Source: Actinomadura madurae | Lineage (GTDB): Bacteria; Actinomycetota; Actinomycetes; Streptosporangiales; Streptosporangiaceae | DNA: 64,000 bases | Reading direction: 5' to 3' | Assembly: GCF_900115095.1 (NCBI RefSeq) | Contig: NZ_FOVH01000004.1 | Span: forward strand, 290,127-354,126 | In this document: positions 19,106 to 46,024 of the stretch, piece after piece | How the letters are laid out: each line of letters opens with the position of its first letter | How positions within the stretch are numbered: the first letter of the stretch is position 1 | Made by a program: the position numbers and the translations under genes | Notes under the pieces: generated by a model | What the model saw: the letters and a program-made list of their open reading frames with translations, nothing else | Database searches by the model: none | Told to the model about the DNA's origin: nothing

Positions 19106-22100
19106 CTAGGTGGCCGTCTTCGTGTCACCGCCGTGCTTTGTTACTCGTGGTCGTAGTCGCATTTTTCCAGCGCTGCGCGTAAAAGCGACATCGCTTGCCT
19201 TGCTAGACCAAACATAGGCTTCGCCAGGACCGAGATTGGCCATTCTCGCGGGCGTCAGATCAGCAAGTGATGCATTAGCCTTTTGCAAGTGTTTCAACCA
19301 GGCAGGCGACGTGAACTTGTGCAGGATGATGTGATTGGACAGCTCGATCAAGGAGATCGGCACCGATGGCGGATCCTGGCTGGCGACCAACACGCTCATC
19401 CCCTTGTGCCGCATCTCCCGGACACTCTCGACCAGGCCGGCCACTAGATCTGGGCTCTCAATGTACTTGTGCGCCTCGTCGAAAACGACAAGCTTGTTGA
19501 AGCGTTCACTGTCACCCCCGGCCTCGGCGAACAGCTGCATAAGAACGACGAAAAGGCCGAGGGCCTCGTCCTTCTCGATGTATTCGTCTCGCAAGTCGAC
19601 GATGATCATGCGGCCCGGCCGCACGAGCGGCTTCACCCGGGCGCCATCGTCGATGTAGTCGGCGGCCAGGTCGAGTCGCTGCTGCGCGAGCTGTTTCAGG
19701 TTGTCCGACAGGCTGGATTGCTCGACACCGGCCCGGATGAGGTCCAGGCGCAGGTCCCGGCGGTGCGCCTTCATGATCCGTTGCAGTTGCCGAATGTACG
19801 TGGACTGGTTCCCGATCGCGCCCATCAGGAAGCGCCAATGCTCTGCGCGGAGTTCGGCCGAACCGAACTTCAAGGGCAGTACTCGGATGCCGGGGTGCTC
19901 TGCGCGACGCTGGTCCAGCTGGTCTCCGGGGACCAGCATTACGACGTCGGTGAGGGCTGCGGGACGGCCGCCGTACGTGTCTCCGAGGATGCGCGTCTGC
20001 TCTGGATCGTCATTGGCGGCGAGCATGCTCGTGAACTCGGGTGCGTAGTCAAGCGTCGGGCTGTAGTGGAACACGATCGTGGCGAGCGGGCTCGGAAGCC
20101 GGTTCACCGGAGGTGCCGACAGCGACGCCGCCTCGATGATCGACCCGAGCGTGTAGCTCTTGCCGCCGCCTTGGACGCCGAAGAGGCTGATCGTATGCGT
20201 CTCGTTGAGGTCCAGCGCGATCCGACGCCCCGCGGCCTCACCGAGCACACCATATTGAGGAGACGGCCCGCTGGTCCCCAGGAAGACGTCCGGGATCTCC
20301 CCCTGACCAGCGGGTGCATCCTCCAGGCCGACTGGTACCGGACCGGGAACCGGCTCGATTTCGGCGCTCGGTGGAGGGTCTGCCTCCGCCGCGATGGGTT
20401 CGGATCCCGCAACGCCGGGTTCCGGCGACCCCGATTCGGGGACCGCTTCTTCGGCGAGATCAACAGAATCGATGCGGATCGGTTCCTCGGGTGTTGCATG
20501 ATCGCGGGCGGGGGCGCGGAACGCCGCGTCGGATAGCCGTGGCATCGTCAGGTCGAGGCCGCTCAATGTGGTCTCTGTAGTGGGCAGGACCGGGTCTTTG
20601 GGGACGGAATCCAGTAGTTCCTCCGCGAGATTCCGGCCGATCCGGTGGAACTCGACTCCGGCTTCGAACTCCGAACTAGTGCCCCTCCCGGAAAGGTCGA
20701 AGATCAGCCCGGTACGGGTGAAGTCCAGCCTGTATCCGGCGTCGAGCCGGTCAAGGAGCCATCGGGCCTCGGCCGCGGCGTCCGGTCGCATCGTGCGGTG
20801 CCGGACCGCTCGACCGACGTAGAAGCGCAGCATGGCGCCGAGTTCGGCATTGCGCACCGCGCGATCCGGACGGTCGGGATTCTCGCGGTGCGGGTCGAAG
20901 TGCTCCGCCAGCACGGTCTGGCTGCCGTCGAGTTGCTCGATCATTCTGCTCTTGAGCTGCTCGTAGGCCGCGAGCCCGGACAGGGTGCTGTAGCACTTGA
21001 CCTCGACGAGGCGGCAGGTGATGGTTCGGCGCCGTGCGTCCAGGCTCAGCAGAGCGAGGTCGGTGCGTTTCAGGCTGACCGCCTCGGCGACCTCATCGGC
21101 GCGCTTGCGTGATTCCCGGTACAGCCCGAGATGCGCGTCGAGCGGCACGAGGATCTGATCGGCCAGAACACCCTGGTAGTCGAGGAAGAGCCGGGCCAGC
21201 GCGAGCCCCAGGACCTCGGTCCGTTCGGTAGGCGTCGCCGAGGCCAGTTTGAAGGCCAGCCGTCCCGAGAGCAGCCGCAGCTGGTCGAAGAACGTCCCGG
21301 TGTGCCGTGCGTCCACGCTGAAGCCGTGCTGCGCGCACGCCGGTGCGAGCAGCGCGCGGAGCTCGCCGACCGATCGCGAGCTCACGACCAGGTGGTGGCC
21401 CAGGCCCTCGGCGCCCTCCACATCGAAGTCGATGACGTAATCGGGCCGGCGTTCGCTGCCCGGGCTGTCGAAGTACTCCAGGCCCATCGTACGGTCGACG
21501 GTGATCACCCAGTCGCTGCTTCGGTGCGCCTGGTGGAGGAGGGCCCCGTCGTGCGCGTCCAGGTTGAGCGTGACGCGTGGCACCATGTCGGTGCCCACTT
21601 GACCGGTGGCCACCGCCGCGGCCGCCGAAGAGAGCGTCGCGGGCAGGGCGGACAGCAGGTCGGAGAACTCCTCGGCGCCTGTGATCGGCTGGGCCGGGCC
21701 ATGCTGCGGCTGCTTGTGCCAGGTGACGGCCTCCTCGTCCTCCACATACATCGTGGAGACGTCCTGAACAAGGCCGTGAACGGGGGCCATCCGGAGATCG
21801 CCGCGGGGAGCGGCGTTGAAGCTCTCCCCGCTCAGAGCGTCGAAGAGCATGGTGATGTGGGCAGGATGCTCGCTGGTCGCCGCACGGAACTCGGGCAGCG
21901 GCCGGACGGCCACCGCGAGCTTCGGAACGATCCCCGTGGACGTACGGGTGTGGAAGACCTCGGCACCGGCTGCCGATTCCCCCTCGCCCCGCAGGAGTTC
22001 GGCGAGCGCCTCTCCATTGCCGGCGGCCTGGGCATCGGGCGCGAAGAGGCGGATGTCATAGCTGACGTCCGCCAGGTCTTTGCGCCGTTGCAGTTCGAGC

Positions 22101-24478
22101 AGCATCTCCGCGAGATGGTCGGCTCGGCCGGCGTTCACCGCGCTGATCACCAGCGTCCTGACATAGGGATGCAGGCGCAGGTACCGTTCGACCCGGTCGG
22201 CGAGCACCCGACCGGAGACGGCCTGCCCTGCGGTCCACCCGCCCGGCAGGCGCAGCGCCGAGGAGAGCATCGACAGGAGCCCTTGGGGATCGACGGCTCC
22301 GGTGGGGAGGCACACTCCCCAGTACGGGTTGAGATCGCCGGCGGCGATGGTCAGTGACCCATCCGGCAAGGGAACCGCGAGTGGAAAGCCGAGCGGGGTC
22401 AGGTCCTCCAGCGTGCGCCCGGCCGCGGCGATCACCGGGGCCGTGTTCTCCCTAGCGTTTTCCAGCCATCGGTGACCGAGTTCCGACCAGGTCACCAGCC
22501 ACAGCAACCGGAGCGGATGGGTGGGGCCGACCAGCACGACATCCTGCCGGTCTCCGTCCTGATTCGTGAAGCCGACCTCGACGGTGTCGATCTGGAGCAG
22601 GGCGGCGAGTTCCCGGAGCAGTCCGCTCTGCCGGTCTTCGGCGGCACGTTCCGCACGGCGGAGCTGCCAGGAGACCAGCTCGCCATAGGCCTCGGCGTAG
22701 CGCTGTATCTCGCTGCGCAAGTCCAGGAGTTCCCGGCCCTCGACCACCAGGCCGTCATCACCCGCCACGGCCGTGAGCACCGCCTGGCGTGCGGTGATGA
22801 ACGCGTCCACGGCGGCGTCGGTCCCGTCGTGAATCCGCAGGTCTTCAGGGAAGGCGTCACCGGCATGGTCGACCTTGACCGGAATCCGCCAGCGGCGGAG
22901 ACGGCCGGGCTCGGCGAGGACTCGCCGCTGCACGTCCAAGAGCGTGGGAGCGAGCGGGATATCGGCGGATCCGTGCCCCCCGAACGTGGCGTGCAGAACG
23001 TACCGTCCCGCACCCTCGCCGCTCTTCCACGAAACGCTCTTGGCTCGGAGGCCGCGCCATTCGCGGGAGTCTTCGAGCGCTTTGAATTCCAGCCTGCGGA
23101 GAGCCTGACTGACACCGACCTCCCGGACGACGCGCTGCCTGGGCGGCGGCTCGTCGAAATCGTCATCGGCGATGACCATGAACCGGTCGCTCTCGTTGCC
23201 GGGACCGGAGTCGTCGGCACCGTCCCCCCAGGCGGTCCGCACCGGAAGCGGGACGCCTTCGTCGTCCTGCGGCGTGACCCGAATGAAGTGCCAGCCCTGC
23301 TCCAGCTCGGCGGCTCGGAGCTTCTTGAGTGTCGCCTTGTAGGTGTTCTTCGCGGTCTTACCGAGCCGGACGGTCGCGGTCACGCCGGTGGGCCCGGAAT
23401 CCTCCGAGAGCAGGTGGACGACGAACTTGGCGAGGCCGGCCACCCGCCGCGGGTCGGGTTCCACCTGGAAGGTGATCGCGAGCTGGGTCAGACCGTGTCG
23501 TCCACCGTGCAGGAACGGCTGTCCGGTGATGTTCTTCAGGACGTGATGTCCGGTGTGATCGGCCGAGTCGCCGGCCTTGGGCAGTTGCAGCTCACCGATG
23601 GTGATGCGCAATGCCTCGGTGATCCGTTCCTCGCGCAGGGGCCAGCGATGAAAAGCGAGGTTCCAGTTCGCCTTGTCGACCACGATCTGTCGCGTCCAGG
23701 CGCGTGGGTCTTCGAGCCCCGTCCGCGCCAGGAAGTCGGCCAAACGCGCACGGAACGCGGTATCGGTCAGGCCAAGTTCGATCACCCGCTGACGCTCGGG
23801 CCGTTCGGTGTTCCCCAACACCCGGGCCTGCCGGATGTTCATCCCTGTGCGGGTCTTGACCTGCGCGGGGTCGCGGAACAGGTCGAAGTCGGGCACGAGA
23901 CCCAGTTCGAAGACGGCTGCTCCTGCGGCCAGGGGGTCGTTGTCGTTGAGCTGGATCGTCAGCAGAAAACGGCAGCGGGCGTAGTCCTCCGCATAGGCCC
24001 ACGCCTGTTCTTCGACGACCTCGAACACCTCCTCGACCAAGTACCGGAGGGTCTCGGGAAGTTCGGCGTGAAGCCGCGCGGCGAGTTCGGCGTAGACGTC
24101 ACCGAGCGGCACGTCCTCGAAGGTGGCCACGCCGAAGGAGTCCTCGGCGCTGGCGTGCGTCCGCGGCGTGACGAAGACCAGCAGCGGGGGGCGTTGCCGG
24201 CCATGCGCGTCCGGGTTGCGCAGCTCCACCAGCTTGGTGCTCGTCACGGCCACATCGGAGGGAACAGCGGAACCCAGCACGTAGACCTGGCCGTCTTCGC
24301 CGGTGGCGCCGCGTACGCGCCGGCACAGCCGGGCCGCCAGGGAGGGGCCGACATCGGTGACGCGCATGCAATGGCCTGGGCCGCGTTCAAGCAGGTATCG
24401 CGACAGCCGGGGCGCCAGCACCCGTTCCAGAGCCGTCTCCAGATCCTGTTCGCGCAGCTCGTGAAGTCCGGTGCTCAT
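19106..24478 (-). CDS. mad8: MADS protein MAD8: HerA-type ATPase with nuclease-like motif
   Basis: A 1,790-residue protein. The C-terminal part is a HerA/FtsK-type ATPase: Walker A FGVQGGGKSYT near residue 1430, Walker B KLVVFDEAHKYI near 1665, then LVASQDPPSVP. Around residue 1159, LVEVKCYS following an acidic strand (LLSLD) resembles a PD-(D/E)XK nuclease core. The N-terminal 1,100 residues have no domain I can name. A Pro/Glu-rich linker (about 1300-1390) joins the ATPase. It overlaps mad7 by 4 bases and ends the minus-strand operon. I recognise it as the ATP-binding component MAD8 by size, ATPase type and position after the kinase gene. Expected role is DNA translocation or cleavage in antiphage defence. 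Confidence 0.75.
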   Translation of the reverse strand: MSTGLHELREQDLETALERVLAPRLSRYLLERGPGHCMRVTDVGPSLAARLCRRVRGATGEDGQVYVLGSAVPSDVAVTSTKLVELRNPDAHGRQRPPLLVFVTPRTHASAEDSFGVATFEDVPLGDVYAELAARLHAELPETLRYLVEEVFEVVEEQAWAYAEDYARCRFLLTIQLNDNDPLAAGAAVFELGLVPDFDLFRDPAQVKTRTGMNIRQARVLGNTERPERQRVIELGLTDTAFRARLADFLARTGLEDPRAWTRQIVVDKANWNLAFHRWPLREERITEALRITIGELQLPKAGDSADHTGHHVLKNITGQPFLHGGRHGLTQLAITFQVEPDPRRVAGLAKFVVHLLSEDSGPTGVTATVRLGKTAKNTYKATLKKLRAAELEQGWHFIRVTPQDDEGVPLPVRTAWGDGADDSGPGNESDRFMVIADDDFDEPPPRQRVVREVGVSQALRRLEFKALEDSREWRGLRAKSVSWKSGEGAGRYVLHATFGGHGSADIPLAPTLLDVQRRVLAEPGRLRRWRIPVKVDHAGDAFPEDLRIHDGTDAAVDAFITARQAVLTAVAGDDGLVVEGRELLDLRSEIQRYAEAYGELVSWQLRRAERAAEDRQSGLLRELAALLQIDTVEVGFTNQDGDRQDVVLVGPTHPLRLLWLVTWSELGHRWLENARENTAPVIAAAGRTLEDLTPLGFPLAVPLPDGSLTIAAGDLNPYWGVCLPTGAVDPQGLLSMLSSALRLPGGWTAGQAVSGRVLADRVERYLRLHPYVRTLVISAVNAGRADHLAEMLLELQRRKDLADVSYDIRLFAPDAQAAGNGEALAELLRGEGESAAGAEVFHTRTSTGIVPKLAVAVRPLPEFRAATSEHPAHITMLFDALSGESFNAAPRGDLRMAPVHGLVQDVSTMYVEDEEAVTWHKQPQHGPAQPITGAEEFSDLLSALPATLSSAAAAVATGQVGTDMVPRVTLNLDAHDGALLHQAHRSSDWVITVDRTMGLEYFDSPGSERRPDYVIDFDVEGAEGLGHHLVVSSRSVGELRALLAPACAQHGFSVDARHTGTFFDQLRLLSGRLAFKLASATPTERTEVLGLALARLFLDYQGVLADQILVPLDAHLGLYRESRKRADEVAEAVSLKRTDLALLSLDARRRTITCRLVEVKCYSTLSGLAAYEQLKSRMIEQLDGSQTVLAEHFDPHRENPDRPDRAVRNAELGAMLRFYVGRAVRHRTMRPDAAAEARWLLDRLDAGYRLDFTRTGLIFDLSGRGTSSEFEAGVEFHRIGRNLAEELLDSVPKDPVLPTTETTLSGLDLTMPRLSDAAFRAPARDHATPEEPIRIDSVDLAEEAVPESGSPEPGVAGSEPIAAEADPPPSAEIEPVPGPVPVGLEDAPAGQGEIPDVFLGTSGPSPQYGVLGEAAGRRIALDLNETHTISLFGVQGGGKSYTLGSIIEAASLSAPPVNRLPSPLATIVFHYSPTLDYAPEFTSMLAANDDPEQTRILGDTYGGRPAALTDVVMLVPGDQLDQRRAEHPGIRVLPLKFGSAELRAEHWRFLMGAIGNQSTYIRQLQRIMKAHRRDLRLDLIRAGVEQSSLSDNLKQLAQQRLDLAADYIDDGARVKPLVRPGRMIIVDLRDEYIEKDEALGLFVVLMQLFAEAGGDSERFNKLVVFDEAHKYIESPDLVAGLVESVREMRHKGMSVLVASQDPPSVPISLIELSNHIILHKFTSPAWLKHLQKANASLADLTPARMANLGPGEAYVWSSKASDVAFTRSAGKMRLRPRVTKHGGDTKTAT

Positions 24479-26181
24479 GCTCTCCCCCCCGAACGCTCCG
24501 CCGAGCGGAGCTCGTCCGTTGAATGGCGGTGGGCGGGGGCTGGAGGACGGTCTGGCCCGCCGACCGTGTAACGCGGCGTGATCGTCTGTGTCAGATAGGC
24601 GTCGGACAGGTCCGAGTAGAAACCGATCTCTCTCAGCCGGGCCGTGAACGCCCCGACGTTGGCGCGGAACGCGGCCTGCTGGTCGATGGTCGACCGGGCG
24701 AAGCCGTCACCGGCGGGCAGCCGGTCGATGTACAACCCGTAGCGCTCGCGGAGGATGTCGAGGAATTCGTCCACACGCAACGCGGCGGTGTAGTACTCCC
24801 CGTCGTCTCCCTGCTTGAGCAGGGACAGCTGGAGCAGCACTTCCAGGAGTCGGCTGTCCAGGACGAACCGCCGGTCTCCCCCGCGCGGTTGAGCGATCAG
24901 TGCCCCGGGCCGTTTCTTCAGCAGCAGGGAGTCCAGGCAGCCGGTGAGGTATTTGCGGTGGAAGCCGACCCGGTAGGCCGTGATGATCTGGATGTAGGCC
25001 GTGAAGTCGTCAAGCCCGAGCTGGAGGATCTGCTCGATCTCCCGATCGGTGTCGGCATCGCTCGTGCGCGTCCCTTCGATCACTGCCAGGCGTCCGCCGG
25101 CGAACCTGTCGCGCTCCTCCCGGTGCTCTGGCCCGAGCAACCGGAGGAGTTCGCCGACGAGGAAGAACCCGCGGTCCGGCATGCGCAGGGCGCCACGCCG
25201 CACCAAGTGCCGCGCCAGGTCGTCGAGCCGCTTCACCGTGAACGTCGCCTCGATGAAATCGGGTATGCGCCCGAACCACACGGCGGCGCTGCGCTCGGCC
25301 AGCCGCGCCGCCGATGTGCCCGGGATCCCTGCCACGTCCAGGAAAAACCCTCCGTTGGGCCGGGTCCGATCGCTGTAGGAGGACGACCCCCCGCGCCGCC
25401 CGAAATGGCCCGGCTCACCGCCGACGAGCGCGGGCAGCAGCTTGAGGATCCGCAGGTGGTAGAGCGCGAGATGGAAGGCGAAGAGGATCTTGAGATGGTC
25501 GACCAGGACCGAGCGTGGGATCAGGTCCCGGTGGAACAGCAGCCGGAGCACGTCGTCCACCAGGACGTCGGATGCCTCCGGGTAGAGGGGAGGATGCGAA
25601 CGGCGGTCCTTGCCACTGGCGGCGCGGTCGGTGATGTCGCGCTTCACCGCCTCGGAGAGACTGATCAGTGCCTGGGTTTCCACATCGATGTCGGCGTCGG
25701 GCCGCGGTATCTCGGTGCGCTGGTCCATGCCGTCGAAGAAGAAGTTCTTCAGATGCTCCAGCGTCCGGGTACCGCGCCGCGGATCCGAGGCGTGGTGGAT
25801 CATCTCGTAGAGCTGTTCGTCGGCGCCATAGGCACGGGATCGGCGCGCATTCCTGAATCGGTAGGTGAACCCGTGCAACGGCCGCAGCCCGGCGACCGCC
25901 TGAGTCGGCTTTCCCCGGTTCACGATGTCCAACAGGTGGGTTTCCAGCCACCTGCGGGTGGTGTCGGTCTCGAAGCCGACGAACGATTCCGGGTGCTCCC
26001 GGAATGTCTCCGTGAAGTCCTCGACGTCGAGGTCGGCGGTCCGGGAGAGGATGCTGGATTTCCCGCCCCACCACAGCCGGGGCAGGAAGGCGGTCAGCAC
26101 CCGGTCCATTTCCAGCTGCTTGTAGTCCAGGTAGCTCACTCCTGGATGGCGGAACTCCTTGTCACCGCGGCTCAGTGTCAT
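24475..26181 (-). CDS. mad7: MADS protein MAD7
   Basis: A 568-residue protein beginning MTLSRGDKEFRHPGVSYLDY. ATG 26181 is preceded by GAGGAGGGCGGG and overlaps the end of mad6 by 20 bases; a longer GTG start at 26646 would lie wholly inside mad6 and is rejected. No catalytic motif or known domain is visible; the C-terminal quarter looks winged-helix-like (LEVLLQLSLLKQGDDGEYYT), which is a guess. Its stop overlaps the start of mad8. The name rests on gene order between the kinase protein and the HerA ATPase. It probably forms a complex with both. Confidence 0.7.
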   Translation of the reverse strand: MTLSRGDKEFRHPGVSYLDYKQLEMDRVLTAFLPRLWWGGKSSILSRTADLDVEDFTETFREHPESFVGFETDTTRRWLETHLLDIVNRGKPTQAVAGLRPLHGFTYRFRNARRSRAYGADEQLYEMIHHASDPRRGTRTLEHLKNFFFDGMDQRTEIPRPDADIDVETQALISLSEAVKRDITDRAASGKDRRSHPPLYPEASDVLVDDVLRLLFHRDLIPRSVLVDHLKILFAFHLALYHLRILKLLPALVGGEPGHFGRRGGSSSYSDRTRPNGGFFLDVAGIPGTSAARLAERSAAVWFGRIPDFIEATFTVKRLDDLARHLVRRGALRMPDRGFFLVGELLRLLGPEHREERDRFAGGRLAVIEGTRTSDADTDREIEQILQLGLDDFTAYIQIITAYRVGFHRKYLTGCLDSLLLKKRPGALIAQPRGGDRRFVLDSRLLEVLLQLSLLKQGDDGEYYTAALRVDEFLDILRERYGLYIDRLPAGDGFARSTIDQQAAFRANVGAFTARLREIGFYSDLSDAYLTQTITPRYTVGGPDRPPAPAHRHSTDELRSAERSGGRA

Positions 26182-34995: not shown

Positions 34996-35005
34996 CCGGC
35001 GGTCA
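34993..35005. terminator. Short hairpin formed by two convergent stop codons
   Basis: TGACCGGCGGTCA: TGACC pairs with GGTCA around GGC. The left TGA is the AIPR stop and the right TCA is the stop of the convergent minus gene at 35003. It could act weakly in both directions, but no T-runs follow. Confidence 0.3.
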
Positions 35006-37118: not shown

Positions 37119-38278
37119 GTGGCCACCTGCCGGAGGAGTTCTTCGACGGCACGGAAGCGCAGGCGCACCTTCTTCGCGTCGCCGGTCGCGACGGAGATGG
37201 CCTGCAAGAACCAGTCGTCTTCGATGAGGGTCATGAACCGTGCCTGTGCCATGTCTCGTCCTTCGACCAACGCGCCGATCTCTTGGGGCTTCATCTTCGC
37301 CAGGTTCACCGAGACCGCCTCGAACAGAGCCTTGTTGATCGGAAGGCGTCGATCCTGCCCTGGGAATCGCTTACGGAACGCGTGCTCCTCGAAGATGTCG
37401 CGGGCCGCCCACATCGCCCGCTCGAAGTCCGACCGGAGCCGTTCGATCTCATCCGGATCGAGGCTGTTGAGCCGCTTCATCGCCTGGCGGAGGAAGTCGT
37501 CGAGATCTCCGCGTGGATAGTCCGCCGGGTCGGTGAGCCGGAAGGCGAGGAAGCGCAACACCATCTCGCGGTCAGCCATTCGGTCCGGCTTGACACTGTG
37601 TTGGGTCGCTTCGAGGAACGCTTCGCTAGTGGCCAGCTCGGCGAGCAGCGTGCGGGCGCGGCCCGGGATGAGGGCGTGCCGGAGTTCCTGGAGTGTGAGG
37701 GTCTTGCCGCCGATGTTGATGCGGGCGAAGATGTTGAACTTCACCGGCTCCGGCGTCCCCGCCCGGATCAGGTGGACGATCAACTCGGTCTCGTCGATCC
37801 TGGTCTGGAGCCCGCCCGGCAACTCTGAATAGGTACGGCCCTCGTAGGCATCGAGGTATTCCAAGCCACGGAGCCTGAGCGGCTCCGCGCCGATCACTTC
37901 CGGGTCGACGAAACGGGCGATCGTGGTGAGCCGCTGAATGCCGTCGACAACGGCCCAGCTCTCCTCGCCGCTCTCGGCCGCGTAGAGGGTGGGCAGGGGG
38001 ATGCGGAGCAGCAGGGACTCGATGAGCCTGCTCTGGGCGGTCTCATTCCAGATCCCGGCAAGGCGCTGAAAGTCCGGAGTCAGATCGAGGACGCCGCGTC
38101 GCAGCCGGGCCAGCAGCAGGGCCACCGTCGGGTTTCTGGTCTGGACGTCGATCTTGGCCGGATCGAACGGCTCGTGGATGGACTCGGCGAGGGACGGCTC
38201 CTCTTCCTTCTCGACGCCCGTACTGAAGCCCTGGTAGGTGTACTCCACCGGGACGTCGAGCTCTTCCTGCCTGCTCAC
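37115..38278 (-). CDS. DUF262 domain protein
   Basis: A 387-residue protein with a ParB-like DUF262 domain. The NTP-binding/cleaving signature appears as VVDGIQRLTTIARF at about 110-123 (DGIQRLTT, where the usual motif is DGQQRLTT). LTPDFQR and FNIFARINIGG also match the family. DUF262 is the N-terminal half of GmrSD enzymes and of several antiphage proteins, but the DUF1524 HNH half is absent here. GTG start at 38278; its stop overlaps the DUF3696 ATPase start. Upstream, about 80 bases separate it from the HATPase gene on the same strand. Likely a nucleotide-dependent nuclease or sensor partner. Confidence 0.85.
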   Translation of the reverse strand: MSRQEELDVPVEYTYQGFSTGVEKEEEPSLAESIHEPFDPAKIDVQTRNPTVALLLARLRRGVLDLTPDFQRLAGIWNETAQSRLIESLLLRIPLPTLYAAESGEESWAVVDGIQRLTTIARFVDPEVIGAEPLRLRGLEYLDAYEGRTYSELPGGLQTRIDETELIVHLIRAGTPEPVKFNIFARINIGGKTLTLQELRHALIPGRARTLLAELATSEAFLEATQHSVKPDRMADREMVLRFLAFRLTDPADYPRGDLDDFLRQAMKRLNSLDPDEIERLRSDFERAMWAARDIFEEHAFRKRFPGQDRRLPINKALFEAVSVNLAKMKPQEIGALVEGRDMAQARFMTLIEDDWFLQAISVATGDAKKVRLRFRAVEELLRQVAT

Positions 38279-38357: not shown

Positions 38358-39152
38358 TCACCGCCGGCGAGTCTCGGTGATCGCGTCGGCCTCGCTCCAG
38401 CGGACGATGTCTTCGCCGGCGTCGTACAGGTCGGCGATGGGACGGCGCACGCGGGTGGCGCCCGCGTTGTAGGAGAGGTGGGTCGGCTCGATCCACACGT
38501 TCAGTTCCCGTCCGGCCTCGGCCAGGACGCTCACTACGGAGACGCGTCGGCCGTAGCCTTCGACCACGTTGAGCCCGCGGGACCTGAGGCTGGACGCGAG
38601 GTGGCCGGCGGTCGCCGTCGGCGGAGAGGTGAGGGGCCTGTGCGGCCACGGGTGCGGCAGCGCGAAGGCGCACCACACCGCCTTTCCCCGGACGCCGTCC
38701 CCGGCCCAGGAGCGAGACGGGTGCACGCCCCAGGAGTCGGCGAGCAGGTCGACGATGCTGAGGCCCTTGCCGTGATCGTCTAGGACGTCTTTCGGAGCGA
38801 TGGTCGGCTGGGACGAGCGGCATGCGTCGAACACCGACACCACCAGTTGCGGCTTCGGGGTCGTTCTCGCCCACATCCACAGCTCGGACGGGACTGGCGG
38901 CATGGGCGCGATGTCGGCCCAGGCGCGAAGCGCGTGGTTCAGCGCGTTGGTGACCAGCTCGCTGGCGGCCAGGACCACGTCCTCCACGATGCCGCGTTCC
39001 AAGCCGAGCGGCGCCGCCGCCCCGCGGACCAGGGAACGCGCGATGGACGCGCACCTCTCGTCCGGCGGAAGGCGCCACGCGCACATGCCGCCCTTCGAGA
39101 TATCGCGCGAAAAGGCGCCGCCAATATGTCCAGACTGCACCATGTGTGCCAT
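38358..39152 (-). CDS. ATP-binding regulator, RsbW/SpoIIAB-like (HATPase_c_2)
   Basis: A 264-residue protein with an HATPase fold: VVLAASELVTNALNHA is the N-box, and DDHGKGLSIVDLLADSWG the G-box region. Actinomycetes use many such proteins as anti-sigma or signalling ATPases, often beside XRE/DUF397 pairs as here. ATG 39152 has an ideal GAGGTGA 7 bases upstream; longer starts are rejected. The C-terminal 80 residues have no recognised domain. It is divergent from the XRE gene across 120 bases that presumably hold both promoters. Confidence 0.85.
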   Translation of the reverse strand: MAHMVQSGHIGGAFSRDISKGGMCAWRLPPDERCASIARSLVRGAAAPLGLERGIVEDVVLAASELVTNALNHALRAWADIAPMPPVPSELWMWARTTPKPQLVVSVFDACRSSQPTIAPKDVLDDHGKGLSIVDLLADSWGVHPSRSWAGDGVRGKAVWCAFALPHPWPHRPLTSPPTATAGHLASSLRSRGLNVVEGYGRRVSVVSVLAEAGRELNVWIEPTHLSYNAGATRVRRPIADLYDAGEDIVRWSEADAITETRRR

Positions 39153-39272: not shown

Positions 39273-40082
39273 ATGAACATCAACGAGCCGCCGGACCCCC
39301 GGTCCTCAATGTGGGCATGGATCGCCTACTCACTGCGGTTCCACCGCATGCAGCGCGGCCTCACGGGTGACGCTGTGGGCAAGCTGCTGAACTGTGCGCG
39401 TTCGTCTATTTCCAGACTCGAGAACAGCGAAGCGAAGCTAACCGACAAGCAGGCCGCCATCCTCGACGAGGCGTGGAACACCGGTGGGCTCTTCTCGATC
39501 ACGCTCTGGTTCGCCCGGCAGGGACACGACCCGACCTGGTTCCGGACCTTCACCCAGTTCGAGGCCCGATCCCTATGGATGAAGATCTACAGTGGCCAAC
39601 TCGTCCCTGCGCTCTTCCAGACTCCCGCCTACGCTCGCGCGCTCTTCGCGGAGGGCCGCGCGTCCGACCTCGACAAGGCCGTGGAAGATCGGATATCGCG
39701 TCAGAGCATTCTGACCAAGCTGGACCCACCGGACGTGTGGGTGCTCATAGCCGAGTCAGCCTTGGCGTGTCAGGTAGGTGGCGCTCAAGTCATGCGGGAA
39801 CAACTCGCCAAGCTGCTAGAGATCTCAGAGCTGGCCAACGTCTTCTTGCGCGTGGTGCCCAACACTGCTGGCGCGAACGCAGGCCTCGACGGCTCCTTCA
39901 AGATCATCAAGGTCAAGGAGGGGCAGGTGGGGTATGTCGAGGCCTCCAATGGTGGGAGGCTGGTAGCCGATCCTGCCGAGGTCGAGAGGTTTGGAGTAAA
40001 GTTCGATCGCATCGGGACGGTGGCGCTCCCGGTCGTCGCCTCCCGAGCCTTGATCAAGCATCTGATGGAGACCATGAAGTGA
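39273..40082 (+). CDS. XRE-family regulator with DUF5753
   Basis: A 269-residue DNA-binding protein. The N-terminal helix-turn-helix (about 22-72, LNCARSSISRLENSEAKLTD) is followed by DUF5753 (IPGLLQTP-like VPALFQTPAYARALF), the standard actinomycete BldB/XRE layout. ATG 39273 has GAGGA nearby and avoids the poor N-terminal extension of the longer ORF. Its stop overlaps the GTG of the DUF397 gene; XRE-DUF397 pairs often work together, with the DUF397 protein as partner or antitoxin-like element. It may regulate the divergent HATPase gene; no operator was identified. Confidence 0.88.
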   Translation: MNINEPPDPRSSMWAWIAYSLRFHRMQRGLTGDAVGKLLNCARSSISRLENSEAKLTDKQAAILDEAWNTGGLFSITLWFARQGHDPTWFRTFTQFEARSLWMKIYSGQLVPALFQTPAYARALFAEGRASDLDKAVEDRISRQSILTKLDPPDVWVLIAESALACQVGGAQVMREQLAKLLEISELANVFLRVVPNTAGANAGLDGSFKIIKVKEGQVGYVEASNGGRLVADPAEVERFGVKFDRIGTVALPVVASRALIKHLMETMK

Positions 40083-40264
40083 GATCTCTGACCTGGCGAA
40101 AGAGCAGCTACTCATCGGATGGGACCAGCACTCAGTGCGTGGAGCTCGCCGAGATGGGGGGTGCTATCGGGGTTCGAGACAGCAAGAATCCTGGCGGGGG
40201 CCACCTCATCTTCGCCCCAAAGACCTTTGCCACCTTGGTGCGCCGCATTAAGGACGACATGTAG
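40079..40264 (+). CDS. DUF397 small protein
   Basis: A 61-residue protein, VRSLTWRKSSYSSDGTS at its start, then CVELAEMGGAIGVRDSKNPGG: every DUF397 signature is intact. GTG 40079 overlaps the XRE stop (GTGA), so translation is coupled. DUF397 proteins are the small partners of XRE/DUF5753 regulators in actinomycetes; the precise role is unsettled. A broken paralogue follows at 40315. Confidence 0.9.
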   Translation: MRSLTWRKSSYSSDGTSTQCVELAEMGGAIGVRDSKNPGGGHLIFAPKTFATLVRRIKDDM

Positions 40265-40314
40265 CAATCGAGTGCCCGTCCCGGTCACGATGATGGGCAG
40301 GTTCTGGAGTGCAC

Positions 40315-40509
40315 ATGAGCACTCCCGTTTGACGCAAAAGCAGCCACTCCACGGAGGGCACGTCCGCTCAATGCGTGGAAGTCGCCCGGTTGACCGAGGC
40401 GATCGGCATGCGTGACAGCAAGAACCTTGGCAGGGGCCACCTCGCCCTTAGCAAGCCTCAGTTCGCCGATCTGGTCGATCTGGTCTTGCGGATCAAGAGC
40501 ACCCGCTGA
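40315..40509 (+). pseudogene. DUF397 paralogue with a nonsense codon
   Basis: ATG 40315 reads MSTPV, then TGA at 40330-40332, then RKSSHSTEGTSAQCVEVARL and RDSKNLGRGHLALSKPQF to a proper stop at 40509. The TGA sits exactly where DUF397 has its conserved Trp (TGG), so one base change has truncated the gene. Everything downstream is in frame and family-like. Recent duplicate of the upstream gene. Confidence 0.85.
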
Positions 40510-40545
40510 GCCCGCTCCTGAGTCGTCAACTTCTAAACCTGACCT

Positions 40546-40585
40546 GAGCGGGGCCCCCGACGGTTATCCGTCGGCGGCCCCGCTC
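40546..40585. terminator. Bidirectional terminator hairpin between DUF397 and mad5
   Basis: GAGCGGGGCC (40546-40555) pairs perfectly with GGCCCCGCTC (40576-40585), with an inner GACGG/CCGTC stem and TTAT loop. It lies 10 bases past the mad5 stop on the minus strand and 37 bases past the DUF397 pseudogene on the plus strand, so it can serve both. No long T-run, as is common in high-GC genomes. Confidence 0.75.
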
Positions 40586-40594
40586 GCAGCTTGA

Positions 40595-42010
40595 TCAGCC
40601 CTTCTTGGACGCTTCGGCCATTGCGGTAGCCAGCAAGGCCTGTGCTTCGTCCTCCAGTGCATCGGCTTCGTCACGCCACCGGAACGCCTGCCGTACCGTT
40701 TCCGCGATCCTCTCCCGATCTTCGGGAGTGCACTCCGGCACGGGGATGTGTTTCCGCAGCCTTTCGTGGATGTCCTGCTGCTTGCCACCGACGCTCATTG
40801 AGCGCATGATACGAAAAGCCACCTCAGATCGCATGAAAGCGAAAAGATAGGCACCAGAGAAATCCAGGTCTCCTGGAAGTATGCGCAGAAAATGCTGCGT
40901 GTAAGCATGGTCAAGCCAGTTGCCGGTGACAAAAATTGCTCGACAGAATACTTCAGAGTCGCCAAGGGTCCCCTGTGCGGCAATCAAGGTCGATTCGTTC
41001 TCGGCGAAGATTCCAGGTGGGGACTTATCTGGATTGATCCATCGCCCCTCGGGCTTAAGCCAGAATCCCTGCCGTTGACCGATCAGCTTTACGCCGCGCT
41101 CTGGATCGCTATCTATCCGCACGAACCTAACCCCAGACCCAAGAGCACCCCCGTCACATATCTCACCCAGTTCTCGATGAGGGATTCTCGTTAGTTCCTC
41201 GATTAGATTGTGCGCACGCGGAGAGAAGTTAAAAGCGCGCAGCGTACTGGCATCAAGCCCTGAAACGCTAAAGTCAACATCACGAGGGAGGTCGTGCCAG
41301 CGAAGGTCGACCAACTCAGGGAGACCAGCGCTCTCGAAGAGGTCCCGAGTGGCCTCTGTGACGCCCGTCTGGAATCGTGATCGGCGCATCATCGCTTCTT
41401 GGAAGAGGTCGTCGATCCGGTGCTCGGTCTCTTCGTCCAGCCTAGGTATTGGCAGGTCGGTCAAGTGTGCTGGTTCGATGTGCTTGACGCTCGTTCCATA
41501 TACAGCACTCTTAATCATCGGTGAGCCGTACGAACTGGAGAGGAATGTGTAGAGGTATCCGGCAGGTATGATGTCGACGTCTGGGACGGCACGGATGACG
41601 TGCTGACTGCAAGCGAACCCGTTCATGTCGCTGCGAGCATAGGTGACACGTCCTGCTGTCATACCAGCACAGGTGATGAGTGTCCATCCTGGCTCTAGCC
41701 CCAGCTTAGGAATCTTCTTAAAGGACTTCTTCGTGATCATAGCCAGGGAGGACAGGTCTGCCTGAAAGATGTCGGCGCTTGAGAGGTAGGGGACGCCGAA
41801 CTCTGGGTGTGTCGTCCAGTCGCGTTTGAAGATTCCCGGGCGGAAGATGCGGCCGCTGGTGACCTCCGCGAGGGTTTGGGTGCGCGGGAAGTTCTTCAGG
41901 AGCATCCGGGCCGCGTAGCCGTCCGAGACGTAGGGGCCGGGGCTGAGGCGGTGGCCCTGGTCGGTCAGCCAAGAAAATCGTACGGGGTTGTCGGGCTCGG
42001 CGAGTTTCAC
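40595..42010 (-). CDS. mad5: MADS protein MAD5: type I-like specificity (S) subunit
   Basis: A 471-residue HsdS-type protein that would give the methyltransferase its DNA target. Two target-recognition halves separated by helical spacers are visible: the first around FKRDWTTHPEFGVPYLSSAD to YGTSVKHIEPAHLTDLPIPR, the second around HRELGEICDGG to SVGGKQQDIHERLRKHIPVP. Each ends in the usual spacer helix (EETEHRIDDLFQEAMMR; PEDRERIAETVRQAF). GTG 42010 overlaps mad4 by 4 bases. The stretch 40.8-41.8 kb is visibly more A/T-rich than its neighbours, consistent with exchanged recognition domains. Last gene of the mad2-5 operon, ending at a strong hairpin. Confidence 0.85.
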   Translation of the reverse strand: MKLAEPDNPVRFSWLTDQGHRLSPGPYVSDGYAARMLLKNFPRTQTLAEVTSGRIFRPGIFKRDWTTHPEFGVPYLSSADIFQADLSSLAMITKKSFKKIPKLGLEPGWTLITCAGMTAGRVTYARSDMNGFACSQHVIRAVPDVDIIPAGYLYTFLSSSYGSPMIKSAVYGTSVKHIEPAHLTDLPIPRLDEETEHRIDDLFQEAMMRRSRFQTGVTEATRDLFESAGLPELVDLRWHDLPRDVDFSVSGLDASTLRAFNFSPRAHNLIEELTRIPHRELGEICDGGALGSGVRFVRIDSDPERGVKLIGQRQGFWLKPEGRWINPDKSPPGIFAENESTLIAAQGTLGDSEVFCRAIFVTGNWLDHAYTQHFLRILPGDLDFSGAYLFAFMRSEVAFRIMRSMSVGGKQQDIHERLRKHIPVPECTPEDRERIAETVRQAFRWRDEADALEDEAQALLATAMAEASKKG

Positions 42011-42645
42011 GTGTTCTCCGGGAACCAGGTGCGCAGGCGGTCACAAAGCAAAGTGAAGGCGGGGTCCTTGCAGTGCTCCACCGGCATCTGCTCGGCGACC
42101 CTGGTGAAGTCGGAACTGAAGGCCCGAACCTTATGGTGGCGGCGGAGGTGGTCGAGCGCGCCCTCGGGGTCCTTCGGATGCGTCTCGTCCTTCTTCCAAT
42201 GCTCGCTGCGAACGAGGATCTCCCGGTAATCGTTCGGGAGCGACAAGACGTCGGCCACATCAGGGGCCTGCCACACCCAGGCTTCCAGGCAGGGGTCGAT
42301 CACTATGACGGCGAGCTCATCCCACGTGCGGACCAGCCGGCGATTGAGATCTTCTGCAAGCCTGGCGGGGCCTGGGCTGCCCGGCCAGTTCGCGTTCAGG
42401 ACGACCACGGCGCGGCGGTGAAGCCGCTCGAATGGGCTCAGCAGTTCGGGCGCGACGCTGAAGACTCCCTGGTCCCTGCCGGGAGCGACGAAGACGTCCT
42501 CCTCGGGATCGAAGGCGAATCGGCCGCAGCCGAGCCTCTTGCCGGGATCGCCCGAGCCGCCGAAGAGCCCGCGCAGCATATGTTCCGCTGCGCAGGAGGC
42601 GACGAGGAACACGACGTCTCGCCGGGAATCCTGAATCTCGGTCAC
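42007..42645 (-). CDS. mad4: MADS protein MAD4 (TOPRIM/RloB-like)
   Basis: A 212-residue protein from GTG 42645, which overlaps the mad3 stop (GTGA). Early VVFLVASCAAEHML, a central RAVVVLNANWPG strand and late VIVIDPCLEAWVW resemble the strand-acid pattern of DUF4276/RloB TOPRIM-like proteins that pair with AAA15 ATPases. The first acidic motif is not clean, so the fold is an inference. Its place between the ATPase and the S subunit fits MAD4 of MADS. It may be the nuclease partner of MAD3. Confidence 0.65.
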   Translation of the reverse strand: MTEIQDSRRDVVFLVASCAAEHMLRGLFGGSGDPGKRLGCGRFAFDPEEDVFVAPGRDQGVFSVAPELLSPFERLHRRAVVVLNANWPGSPGPARLAEDLNRRLVRTWDELAVIVIDPCLEAWVWQAPDVADVLSLPNDYREILVRSEHWKKDETHPKDPEGALDHLRRHHKVRAFSSDFTRVAEQMPVEHCKDPAFTLLCDRLRTWFPENT

Positions 42646-43928
42646 GAGAGCACTCCGGCGGCGAAGAGGGTTCCCATGTCGAGGGAGCCGCGCCATTCGC
42701 GTAGCCGGGGGTGTCGCTCCCCGGGAACCACATCCGCGCCGCCGTCGTCGTTCAGCCGGGCCGCGAGGACCTCGTCCTTCGGAGTGTGCGCCAGGACGAT
42801 CGGTGAGTGGGTCGACACCCACACCTGCGAGGCGCCGATCGATCTCAGGGATTGGGTGACCGTCTCGATCGCCCTGGGGTGGACACCGTTCTCCGGTTCT
42901 TCCGTCATCAAGAGCCTGGGCAGCGCTGTCTCGTCCAAGAAGGGCAGCAGTGTCAGCGTCAGCAGCCGCAGTGTGCCCTCCGACAGGCCGGTGGAGGTGA
43001 CGCCGTACCCGCTCGCATGCTTCACGTCAAAGTAGGCGTGGCTGTCCTCTTCCCGTTCGACGACCTTGACGGAGGCTACCTGGGGCAGTGCTACGCGTAG
43101 ATGGGCAAGCCAGGCGGCGAACCGGTCGGGGTCGTTCTCTTGAAGAGCGAGTGCGAGCCACGGGATGTTCTGTCCGGACGGCTCCAGCACATCGGGGCCG
43201 CCGGGAGGGGCCGGACGCCGGAGCGTGTCCCAGTGCGGTGCCAGGAAGGTGACGTCCTCGCGCAGGAATTGGGCGAACCACAGGGCCGCTGGGAAGAGCG
43301 TCGGGTCGGCGGGGATCGTGTCGAGCGAGAGCCGTTCCGGCGGTACCCGGAAGGGCGGGATCTCGGTGTCCCGCGTCGTCGTCTCCGGAATGAACTTGGT
43401 GGGGCCGTTGCGTTCCCGGGCTATCACCGCCTGCCAGTCGTCGTGCGGCAGCGGCGTATCGTCCCTCGTGCCCTGCGGGAACGTGCCGGGTTCGGGACGG
43501 TTCCCGTCCCCGGTGAACAAGAACATGCTCTCGTCGGACACCTTGATCGTGCGTTTGGACACGTCCAAGCGGACCTCGTAACGCAGATGGGTGGGCACGG
43601 GCTTGCCGAGCCTGGCCATGCTCGTGCTCGCCAGGCGGTCGACATGGTCGGCGGGCAGCCTCGCCTCGACGGCGAACGAGATCGTGTCTCCCTCCTGGCG
43701 GTGCAGCAGTTCCAGCGGGGCGCCCGCGCGCGGCGTCCGTCCGGGACGTGCGTGGAGGAACGCGCCGGCCACCCGCTGCTCGCGTACCAGGTCGCCGAGC
43801 AGGACGGGGACGTCCAGCAACGTGGTCTTGCCGGAGCCGTTGGTCCCGACGATCACGTGGTGGCGGTCCAGGTCGATCGTGAGCCGGGAGAAGCAGCGGT
43901 AGCCGTACGCCTCGATCCTGGTGATCAT
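42642..43928 (-). CDS. mad3: MADS protein MAD3: AAA15-type ATPase
   Basis: A 428-residue ABC/SMC-like ATPase: Walker A VIVGTNGSGKTTL at about 25-37, TSTGLSEGTLRLL as the signature region, RLLMTEEPENGVHP as Walker B and VSTHSPIVLAHTP as the switch. ATG 43928 overlaps mad2 by 4 bases; the longer ORF to 44882 is only a shadow of mad2. Family relatives are RloA and the OLD ATPases, which act with TOPRIM partners, here probably MAD4. Expected role: ATP-driven sensing of unmodified or invading DNA. Confidence 0.8.
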   Translation of the reverse strand: MITRIEAYGYRCFSRLTIDLDRHHVIVGTNGSGKTTLLDVPVLLGDLVREQRVAGAFLHARPGRTPRAGAPLELLHRQEGDTISFAVEARLPADHVDRLASTSMARLGKPVPTHLRYEVRLDVSKRTIKVSDESMFLFTGDGNRPEPGTFPQGTRDDTPLPHDDWQAVIARERNGPTKFIPETTTRDTEIPPFRVPPERLSLDTIPADPTLFPAALWFAQFLREDVTFLAPHWDTLRRPAPPGGPDVLEPSGQNIPWLALALQENDPDRFAAWLAHLRVALPQVASVKVVEREEDSHAYFDVKHASGYGVTSTGLSEGTLRLLTLTLLPFLDETALPRLLMTEEPENGVHPRAIETVTQSLRSIGASQVWVSTHSPIVLAHTPKDEVLAARLNDDGGADVVPGERHPRLREWRGSLDMGTLFAAGVLS

Positions 43929-46024
43929 CGGCGGCTCCCTCGGGGCAGCCCCGGCTCCTTGTGCCTGACGCGGAACTCCTTGTACGCCTTCGCGATCTCC
44001 TTGAGGTCGTCGTCGATGGCCTTGCGCTTGCGGTGCAGGATGGTGACCTCGTCGCGGTCGCCGATCCGGACCCGCTCCTTCTCCTCCACGACCTCCAGGA
44101 CGATCTCTCCGTCCGGGTGGCGCTTGTAGACCGGGTTGCCGCGCCGGTCTATGCCGACCTTCTCGGCCACGGCCATGAAGACCGGGTAGTCGTCCTGCTT
44201 GCCCATCGTCGTCTCGAGCTTCTCCCGCTCGGTCTTCCGCTTCAGGAAGAGCAGGCTGGTGAGGATGTTGACCCCCGCGTCGTGGATGAAGGTCTCCACC
44301 GGGAGCTCGACGCTGGCGAGGACCCAGCAGTTGTCCAGGATCCACTGGCGGATGCCCTCGTCGACCGGGCCCGGGTTCGACAGGATCCCGTTCGGTAGGA
44401 CGATGCCGATCCGGCCGCCGGGTCTGACCCACTCCACGGCTCGCTGGATGAAGAGCTGCTCTGGCGACACGGCGGCCCGGCGTTCGCCGGTGGGTTCGGC
44501 CCTGCCGGTCTCCTTGTTCCGGATGAAGGCGCTGGCGACGCCGTCCCGGTACATGTCCAGGATCTCGGCGCTCTCGACCTTGATGTCGGTGCCGAACGGC
44601 GGGTTCGTCATCAGGACGTCGACCGAGCCCAACTGGATGCGCTCGCTCGCCGGGGCCACACCGGAGAGATGGCCTCTGGGGAAGGCCAGGGAGTCCAGGT
44701 GGTAGACGTTTCCCTCGCCGCCCGTCAGGGTCATGATGCTCATGCTGGTGGCCCGGACGAGGAATGGGTCGAAGTCGGCGCCGAACAGGTGCTCCTCGGC
44801 GAAAGTGTGCAGCCGGTCCTGGTGGGCGATCAGCTGCTCCTCGGTGTCGGGAAGTCCGCTGGTCTGCTCCTCGTCCCGCCATTTGTTGAGCAGGTGGCGG
44901 AGCGTCTCGCGGAGGAAGCCGCCGGTGCCGCAGGCGGGGTCGAAGACGGTCTCGTCCTCCTGGGGGTCGAGGATCGACACCGTCAGCTCGACCGCGCCGA
45001 TGGGGGTGAAGTACTGTCCCCGGTCACCGCGCAGGTTGGCGCCGAGGAGTTCCTGGTAGGCCATCCCCTTGACGTCGATGTCGGTGCCCGTCAGGTCGTA
45101 GGGCGCGAGCTCGCCGACGATGAACGCCAGCGCCCGGTCGGACATCGTGATCTCATCGCGTGCGGTGAAGAGCGGGTACTCCCGCTTGACCTCCGCGAAG
45201 AGCGCCTCGATCCGCTTGCGGATGGCCTTGCGGCCGTCCTCGGTGAACGGTTCGGACGGTAGCGCGTAGAACTCCGGTGCCCGGCCGGTGCGGCGGCTGA
45301 TCCGCTCGTCGTACATCTTGGCGAACAGCAGGTAGAGGAACTGCCAGAAAGCGGCGTCCTTCGGCATGCCCTCGTTGCCGTGGATGTAGTTGTGACAGCG
45401 CTGGAAGGCCGTCTTGAGCATTTCTCTCTCGCCGCGGCGCAGGCGCGCGACCGACACGACCGTGCCGCTCTGCACCGATTCGTCGGCGAGCGGCCAGTCG
45501 GCCCGCTGCTCGAACCGGGCGCCGAATCGGGTCGATTCCTTGTAGAGGAAGAAGAAGTCGACGCCGTTGGTCCACATGCCGTATTGGGCACGTGGAGTCG
45601 CCTCCGTGCCGAGGAGTGTCTCGAGTTCCTCCAGGTCTTCCTTCGCCTGGGTGTAGGTGCGGATCTTGGTGACCTTGCGGCTCGCCTTGGGCTCGGGCTT
45701 GCAGATCACGACGCGGCGCAGGTTCTCCGGCCGATGCTCGGCTTCATGCTCGAAGATCGCTATGTCGGCCTTCTTGGTCGTCCGGCGCCGTCCGACCGCG
45801 TCCACGGGGATCGGGAAGTCGCGCTCCATGTCGGCGACCGAGATCCCGTACTCGTGGAACAGCGCCCGTGCGACCCGCTGCCGGACGGGCTCGCTCCCCC
45901 GGTCCCGGACTCGCTTGCCGGTGATGAAGTCGATGATCTCGTCGTCGGCGAGCGAATCGGGCGCGCCGTCCTCGGTCCCGGGCGCCTTGCCCGCGTCTCC
46001 GATGTCCAAGCTGACCTGCTCCAT
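43925..46024 (-). CDS. mad2: MADS protein MAD2: N6-adenine DNA methyltransferase
   Basis: A protein of about 699 residues like type I HsdM. An N-terminal region (HEYGISVADMERDFPIPVD ... KADIAIFE) matches the type I restriction R/M N-terminal domain. The SAM motif VFDPACGTGGFL lies near 363 and the catalytic NPPFGTDI near 475, followed by LPNGILSNPG. The enzyme would methylate adenine at sites set by MAD5, marking self DNA. Starts are uncertain: ATG 46024 (MEQVSLDIG) is used; ATG 46045 is the main alternative. First gene of a four-gene operon with 4-base overlaps throughout. Upstream lies the palindrome-bearing gap shared with Wadjet. Confidence 0.85.
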   Translation of the reverse strand: MEQVSLDIGDAGKAPGTEDGAPDSLADDEIIDFITGKRVRDRGSEPVRQRVARALFHEYGISVADMERDFPIPVDAVGRRRTTKKADIAIFEHEAEHRPENLRRVVICKPEPKASRKVTKIRTYTQAKEDLEELETLLGTEATPRAQYGMWTNGVDFFFLYKESTRFGARFEQRADWPLADESVQSGTVVSVARLRRGEREMLKTAFQRCHNYIHGNEGMPKDAAFWQFLYLLFAKMYDERISRRTGRAPEFYALPSEPFTEDGRKAIRKRIEALFAEVKREYPLFTARDEITMSDRALAFIVGELAPYDLTGTDIDVKGMAYQELLGANLRGDRGQYFTPIGAVELTVSILDPQEDETVFDPACGTGGFLRETLRHLLNKWRDEEQTSGLPDTEEQLIAHQDRLHTFAEEHLFGADFDPFLVRATSMSIMTLTGGEGNVYHLDSLAFPRGHLSGVAPASERIQLGSVDVLMTNPPFGTDIKVESAEILDMYRDGVASAFIRNKETGRAEPTGERRAAVSPEQLFIQRAVEWVRPGGRIGIVLPNGILSNPGPVDEGIRQWILDNCWVLASVELPVETFIHDAGVNILTSLLFLKRKTEREKLETTMGKQDDYPVFMAVAEKVGIDRRGNPVYKRHPDGEIVLEVVEEKERVRIGDRDEVTILHRKRKAIDDDLKEIAKAYKEFRVRHKEPGLPRGSRR

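Follow-up and report, generated by a model that had tools for sequence, protein, structure and literature searches.

The 64,000-nucleotide stretch of Actinomadura madurae DNA considered here (the window, which lies on one contig of a 10.25-Mb genome assembled in 54 contigs) carries what we believe to be one MADS defence system. In our reading, further defence genes are accommodated at its mad5-mad6 junction, which acts as a slot for them, and an AIPR family protein serves as a dedicated, possibly methylation-gated nuclease. We infer the mechanism from the genes and their models, and we hold this reading with a probability of about 0.6.

Among the window's proteins, mad2 to mad8 are all assigned by PADLOC profiles, and they lie on a single strand (minus) and in order, in two blocks. 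One block holds mad2 (43925..46024), an N6 adenine DNA methyltransferase (PADLOC mad2 1.2e-72, outscored by a general type II methyltransferase profile; Pfam N6_Mtase 9.2e-31); mad3 (42642..43928), an OLD/AAA_15-type ATPase (PADLOC mad3 3.2e-32, outscored by the HEC-01A profile; Pfam AAA_21/AAA_15); mad4 (42007..42645), with a weak match (PADLOC mad4 5e-5); and the specificity-subunit-like mad5 (40595..42010; PADLOC mad5 2.1e-42). The other holds mad6 (26162..30271; 1369 aa), with matches to PADLOC mad6 (1.5e-101) and PglW (8.3e-70) and to Pfam Pkinase and NERD, behind which weak NTPase matches are located; mad7 (24475..26181; 568 aa; PADLOC mad7 2.9e-117); and mad8 (19106..24478; 1790 aa), whose C-terminal part is HerA-like (PADLOC mad8 7.4e-38, HerA profiles to 3.2e-5). 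Gene starts were fixed from codon scores and from overlaps with adjacent genes. Longer open reading frames (ORFs) for mad3, mad4 and mad7 (starts 44882, 42822 and 26646) overlap the preceding genes and were therefore trimmed to short overlaps; the PADLOC and Pfam searches of these three were run on the longer versions. Adjacent mad genes overlap by 4 bp, mad7 and mad6 by 20 bp, and all seven are open frames.

The original prediction, made from the letters of the window, had placed mad2-3-4-5 and mad6-7-8 on one strand, in order and with short overlaps, and both the profiles and the overlaps bear it out; the profiles also assign the two halves to MADS, and not to unrelated systems. Nor were the halves found independently of each other: mad2 and mad7 co-occur in 51 of the 54 loci compared below, and the remaining three (L093, L094 and L098) are short contigs, although the loci were gathered through mad7, so that an isolated mad2-5 half would escape detection. 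The expectation of a contiguous eight-gene locus fails in the window, where mad5 and mad6 stand 10,323 bp apart and mad1 was not found; split relatives are otherwise MADS. The mad1 gene is part of the MADS family definition. Its PADLOC profile has no match within the window, and this profile of 60 positions is unspecific, matching all 14 of 14 control genomes.

The mad5-mad6 junction among relatives

Across the phylum, 3 of 396 sampled genomes carry mad7, and within the window's family 14 of 341 do, 10 of them with strong matches (E < 1e-100); both counts, and the strong set, include the window's own genome. When 84,980 named genomes were scanned with a mad7 alignment, 50 loci emerged, of which 28 bear a Streptomyces title; after extension and removal of duplicates, 54 loci were compared. 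The mad7 of A. pelletieri is 90% identical to that of the window. Both ends of the junction were found in 46 loci, of which 29 have a mad5-mad6 spacing of -1 to 3 bp and 17 one of 842 to 10,323 bp.

Five of the 54 loci are split with a Menshen system in the gap, namely those of the window, of A. pelletieri (G654), of two further genomes of the same genus (G675, G684) and of one from another genus (G722); AIPR also occupies the slot in four of the five, G675 having none there. Within the family set, mad5 and mad6 are contiguous in G695, G696, G613, G672 and G689. Ten further split loci lie in a Streptomyces clade and carry other cargo, with an XRE-DUF5753-like match beside mad5. No Menshen was seen in the slot of these ten; AIPR stands beside mad6 in six of them, in front of mad2 in three and on another contig in one, and the slot of L078, of the same clade, holds an AbiEii-type toxin gene. 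In L087, L088 and L099, 0.8 to 1 kb separates mad5 from mad6.

The tree of mad2 and mad7 covers 51 loci, with L093, L094 and L098 excluded and L087, L088 and L099 scored as contiguous; the MADS and AIPR trees are both quick searches without bootstrap, and the split-locus list, three mad5 positions, the methyltransferase neighbours of the unlinked AIPRs and the AIPR places behind the linkage counts were entered by hand. On the mad2 and mad7 tree the split state needs three changes, and the approximately unbiased test rejects a tree that unites the 15 split loci in one clade (p-AU 0.000135). Judged from this tree, the junction was opened at least twice, or was opened once and then closed again, gains and losses of the split being indistinguishable because the tree is unrooted. 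Since the split loci form two separate groups, these sequences support the mad5-mad6 junction as a recurrent insertion site.

In four relatives of the same layout, from two genera, mad2, mad5, mad6, mad7 and mad8 are 65-95% identical and align in one piece, 19 of the 20 alignments being free of stops. A single stop is present in the mad2 alignment of G722. Another genome, G684, carries a second and distant mad6-7-8-like set (22-29% identity) at about 9-15 kb of contig C9 (L031), about 28 kb from its main MADS locus.

Menshen, by comparison, is best taken as a separate system here and as a guest in the MADS locus. A strong NsnA match (E < 1e-100) is found in 19 of the 341 family genomes, with five inside MADS, and it is because the other 14 are without a strong mad7 that we take this view.

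AIPR as a probable partner of MADS

The AIPR gene of the window (32869..34995, plus strand) encodes 708 aa, with an AIPR core between a predicted nuclease-like N-terminal part and a RAMA-like C-terminal part, and matches Pfam AIPR (2.5e-34; 119.8 bits against a cut-off of 25) and PADLOC AbiU (2.9e-31). An AIPR match is present in 37 of the 50 named mad7 genomes, and 34 of these have it on the mad7 contig, at a distance of 5.7 to 14.2 kb; in G738, G764 and G765 it is on another contig only (the MADS contig of G765 ends at mad2), and the remaining 13 have no match. Within the window's family, AIPR occurs in 8 of the 10 strong-mad7 genomes, at the locus in 7, versus 53 of the 331 others (P = 2.3e-5, a value that is too small given the non-independence of species). 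The 37 linked copies take three places: 24 lie in front of mad2 on the same strand, 10 on the opposite strand in the mad5-mad6 gap, and 3 behind mad8.

All but one of these linked AIPRs (36 of 37) fall into one clade with SH-aLRT 100, together with one unlinked copy (UL151), which is itself flanked by mad2- and mad5-like neighbours, while 25 of 26 unlinked copies fall outside. The unlinked AIPRs come mostly from the window's family, five being from named MADS genomes; six of their 40 places gave no full ORF and were excluded (L130, L131, L144, L145, L159 and L161), and the first tree omits a further five of the remaining 34, the second eight, as distant or short. As far as these trees go, the AIPR of MADS is its own lineage, with one exception. 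Over 36 loci, the AIPR and MADS distances agree (r 0.86; 0 of 2000 permutations as high), and AIPR is kept within MADS, but it may pass between MADS loci. Because it accompanies such clusters in many related bacteria, we believe AIPR is probably a working partner of MADS and not a passenger.

The original prediction had offered two alternatives for the nested genes, an insertion hotspot or a composite system with added effectors. Both gain support, for different genes: the hotspot is supported by the mad5-mad6 split in two separate groups of loci, Menshen looking like a passenger there, and the composite system is supported for AIPR as an added partner by its three positions near MADS and by the single clade of its linked copies.

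A mad2-like methyltransferase lies within the approximately 10 kb examined at 15 of the 40 unlinked AIPR places. In five of the places without MADS (L133, L135, L136, L141 and L142), AIPR has both a mad2-like methyltransferase and an XRE-DUF5753-like regulator nearby, a recurrent small set. The AIPR gene of Streptosporangium amethystogenes (L052, 17080-19194) sits in DNA with about 54% G+C, against 67% for the window AIPR, and may be a recent arrival.

The mad3-mad4 pair is optional. The gene caller found mad3 and mad4 in the same 18 loci and missed them in L097 and G654, and in L081 as regards the count of absences; these were added by hand, and the pair is absent from 30 of 51 loci. AIPR, mad3-mad4 or both are present in 44 of the 51, a broken copy being counted. 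By the gene content of these loci, mad2, mad5, mad6, mad7 and mad8 stay together as a core, around which mad3-mad4 and AIPR vary as accessory modules, present in some loci, missing from others and shifting in position. In L081, a Leptolyngbya metagenome-assembled genome, mad4-mad3 is inverted behind mad8, away from the usual place. In A. pelletieri (L054 / G654:C1), mad3-mad4 is broken by several stops and frame changes, and mad2, mad5, mad6, mad7, mad8, AIPR and the NsnA, NsnB and NsnC genes each align in one piece and free of stops.

Predicted domains of AIPR

An AlphaFold model of the window AIPR has a mean predicted local distance difference test score (pLDDT) of 80.8. In a second look at it by fold comparison, residues 15-198 matched FokI (Z 9.2), MspJI (7.6) and HamA (7.0), residues 216-360 matched ParB-N (5.8) and, weakly, SspE (4.1), with BrxU at 3.4 over a wider range, and residues 583-694 matched the RAMA domain of MPND (Z 9.8, root-mean-square deviation 2.5, 89 residues aligned); the aligner cautions that a Z below 8 may reflect no more than a shared arrangement, so that FokI and MPND are the matches that remain. 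Toward the N-terminus, D73 and Q90-A-K92 are conserved in the 12 alignment rows that hold this part in full, a looser nuclease pattern is present in 19 of the 36 linked AIPRs (the other 17, of 588-618 aa, are cut at the locus end), and Pfam Mrr_cat_2 appears below its cut-off, at 0.06 and 0.23, in two unlinked AIPRs. Toward the C-terminus, all 24 of 24 rows keep S652 and W675, which by eye correspond to Ser115 and Trp135 of MPND; the first serine of the MPND set is often alanine in the AIPR rows. MPND binds DNA via Ser113, Ser115 and Trp135 (PMC9963953). RAMA has been proposed to read adenine methylation, and RAMA-Mrr-NTPase fusions are mentioned as candidate readers of N6-methyladenine (6mA) (PMC11037411). 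All 36 of 36 linked AIPRs carry the RAMA-like motif, and among the 34 unlinked ones a mad2-like neighbour accompanies 12 of the 24 with the motif versus 1 of the 10 without it (P = 0.03, post hoc). Together, the model suggests a PD-(D/E)XK nuclease joined to a ParB-like and a RAMA-like domain, for which the simplest joint reading, as we infer it, would be a nuclease whose action depends on the mark of the partner methyltransferase.

Several points weigh against this reading and against a dedicated AIPR. Beyond the aligner's caution, the folds rest on one model, in which single domains may be read but, at a predicted template modelling score (pTM) of 0.39, not their arrangement; with the same model Foldseek returned nothing at E <= 0.001, and neither Pfam nor PDB lends sequence support to a nuclease or a RAMA domain in the window AIPR. 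A 2012 paper describes the AIPR N-terminal part as HEPN, and for MPND a preference for 6mA was not confirmed (PMC9963953). The RAMA-like motif also occurs in 24 of the 34 unlinked AIPRs and is therefore not special to MADS. The linked AIPR of G695 belongs to another lineage, a linked AIPR is missing from 14 of the 51 loci, with neither AIPR nor mad3-mad4 present in 7 of these, and over nine divergent loci the AIPR and MADS distances give r 0.14 (325 of 2000 permutations as high), so that old co-inheritance is not established.

A working model and its alternatives

In the mechanism we favour, mad2 with mad5 would methylate host DNA at chosen sites, and the mad6 kinase, mad7 and the HerA-like mad8 would sense or process unmethylated invader DNA. 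The PD-(D/E)XK part of AIPR would then cut DNA; the ParB/DUF262-like part might act as a nucleotide-using switch and the RAMA-like part might check for adenine methylation, by which host DNA would be spared. In split loci with AIPR in the slot, AIPR and mad6 are read in opposite directions from a single short intergenic region, and in the window the gene for a 759-aa protein precedes AIPR there. A bolder version, which we put forward only tentatively, makes AIPR an integral ninth component of MADS in actinomycetes that would read mad2 methylation through its RAMA-like domain and supply the missing restriction step; MADS would then be a five-gene core (mad2, mad5, mad6, mad7 and mad8) with interchangeable effector cassettes (mad3-mad4 and AIPR), for which the mad5-mad6 junction would be one docking place.

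One alternative is ordinary defence-island nesting, wherein MADS tolerates insertions and AIPR and Menshen act alone, with no gain for MADS. It would accommodate the 14 of 19 strong-NsnA family genomes without a strong mad7, the occurrence of AIPR without MADS (53 of 331 genomes), the Wadjet system that adjoins MADS in both the window and A. pelletieri, and the disagreement of AIPR and MADS distances over the nine divergent loci. Random nesting would not, however, lead one to expect that a single AIPR clade is attached to MADS at three positions and in both orientations, or that the same junction is split in two separate groups, and we consider this account unlikely. The idea that AIPR is a backup once MADS is beaten, for example by phages bearing the MADS mark, with type IV-like cutting of methylated DNA in a phage context, strikes us as rather improbable. 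Maestri 2024 reportedly describes epigenetic escape from MADS. Such a role would be in keeping with the backup effectors described inside BREX loci (PMC12839542) and with the mention of RAMA-Mrr-NTPase fusions as candidate 6mA readers (PMC11037411), but host DNA would bear the same mark, so that a further cue would be needed, and none is indicated by the present data.

Finally, the block might have disrupted MADS and left the halves as a decaying relic, an explanation we regard as very improbable. A strong hairpin behind mad5, a decayed copy of the same layout in G669 (both described below), the broken mad3-mad4 of A. pelletieri and the one stop in the G722 mad2 alignment would all fit a relic. 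Against this, the window's seven mad genes all have open frames, and the five core genes of the four same-layout relatives are as intact and as similar as reported above. Overall, we believe that a single MADS system with an insertion slot and a dedicated AIPR accounts best for these observations.

Relation to known systems

MADS, Menshen, Wadjet, AIPR and BREX-embedded nuclease effectors are already known. Menshen NsnABC reportedly goes back to Millman et al. 2022. The window resembles MADS, reportedly described by Maestri et al. 2024 in Cell Host Microbe, in its mad2-mad8 profiles, order and strand, and differs from it by the mad5-mad6 split, by the lack of a mad1 match and by the AIPR partner, with mad3-mad4 optional among relatives. 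Its Menshen copy has all three genes adjacent, as in the known system (PMC10952713); it differs in sitting inside another system and is otherwise ordinary. AIPR genes beside restriction-modification genes are known from two reports (PMC3506569, PMC2292703), and the window AIPR shares with the AbiU/AIPR proteins treated there the AIPR domain, a mad2-like methyltransferase also standing at the 15 of 40 unlinked places given above; it differs in that its lineage is tied to MADS and its N-terminal part, elsewhere reported as HEPN, is modelled here as PD-(D/E)XK. BREX with embedded backup nucleases (PMC12839542) is similar in having accessory nucleases, OLD-type ATPase pairs included, in a methylation-based core locus; the main text of that paper contains neither "MADS" nor "AIPR". 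A further likeness to BREX/Pgl is that the window mad6 resembles PglW. No PglZ is seen among the PADLOC matches listed for 30 translated window ORFs, a subset of the genes with some antisense frames.

In the open-access papers searched, neither AIPR as a partner of MADS nor a slot between mad5 and mad6 came up, and among the papers listed as containing both "AIPR" and "MADS" none is on phage defence by its title; the original MADS paper may describe variants. A 2026 review counts the way in which MADS restricts phage DNA among the unknowns (PMC12904381), and the nuclease-like partner beside MADS in 34 of 50 sampled genomes is a direct candidate for this restriction step. That many loci lack mad3-mad4 or hold it in decay indicates which genes are core. 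The slot also points to a preferred site for exchanging defence genes in a multi-gene methylation system other than BREX, which aids the finding of further effectors.

The inserted block, transcription signals and flanking genes

The 10,323 bp between mad5 and mad6 had been described as nine genes and one pseudogene on both strands. The pseudogene is confirmed as a DUF397 copy, and the genes come to eight that are supported, a "tiny ORF" of the original prediction not being predicted by the gene caller. The set of DUF262 and DUF3696 proteins left unnamed there is a complete Menshen system (PADLOC), with three adjacent genes on the minus strand: NsnA (37115..38278; DUF262/GmrSD_N; PADLOC 6.8e-136, Pfam), NsnB (35955..37118; AAA_15/DUF3696; PADLOC 1.2e-115, Pfam) and NsnC (35003..35917; PADLOC 9.5e-98, scored on a longer ORF). 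Between Menshen and mad5 lie a HATPase_c_2-like regulator (38358..39086, minus; Pfam 4.9e-6, 27.0 bits, slightly below the cut-off of 27.4), an XRE regulator with DUF5753 (39273..40082, plus; Pfam DUF5753 2.1e-47), a 61-aa DUF397 protein (40079..40264, plus; Pfam 7.2e-20) and the DUF397 pseudogene (40330..40509, plus), a degenerate second copy with an in-frame stop and a 114-nt repeat at 73%. No target-site repeats were seen at the block ends, each end being searched by itself.

The 759-aa protein next to mad6 (30484..32763, plus) carries Cys-pair motifs and lies outside known families, with no Pfam or PDB match and no viral relative found; its structural model is unusable (mean pLDDT 49.9). 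It is 67% identical in A. pelletieri, is present in 6 of the 341 family genomes, and its gene also adjoins MADS in Streptomyces L072. An ORF on the other strand (31438-32628, minus) was dropped in favour of this gene (50% vs 67%). A decayed copy of the split layout, L168 (G669:C345), has a mad6 remnant of 90 residues, a 759-aa gene with one stop and an AIPR without its first 252 residues; its NsnC reaches the end of the examined stretch.

Directly behind mad5 stands a hairpin with 18-nt arms (40546..40585), a possible terminator between the halves. Its free energy is dG -42.1 (z -7.1) in the window and -32.0 (z -6.7) in A. pelletieri against mononucleotide shuffles; it has no T-run and is not among the terminator or promoter predictions. 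Eight split loci (G193, G675, L083, L084, L086, L087, L088 and L089) have no strong hairpin (z > -2), and the contiguous L067, L068 and L069 have a strong one inside mad6 (z -4.2 to -5.6), so that a hairpin does not distinguish split loci. Between mad6 and the 759-aa gene, the divergent intergenic region (30272..30483; 212 bp) shows by eye stretches common to Actinomadura relatives upstream of mad6; a promoter search of this region gave one sigma-70-like site, as many as in shuffles, and none above chance. In the seven split loci where AIPR and mad6 are both called and adjacent, they diverge from 148 to 179 bp. From this arrangement, the two MADS halves are probably separate transcription units.

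A type II Wadjet system on the plus strand adjoins mad2, with jetABCD at 46206-47744, 47737-48900, 48897-52955 and 52952-54187 (PADLOC JetA2 1.2e-194, JetB2 1.3e-146, JetC2 E=0, JetD2 3.9e-143); minus-strand ORFs at 46086-51266 are antisense to it and were rejected. The Wadjet genes that adjoin MADS in A. pelletieri align in one piece each. Next to jetD, a 475-aa protein (54212-55639, minus) has a borderline recombinase zinc-ribbon match and may mark a mobile element. Farther out, two large proteins (58129-60963, minus, and 61397-63946, plus) have weak PADLOC CARF matches near their ends, and the first of them combines Pfam AAA_16 with a LuxR-type GerE end.

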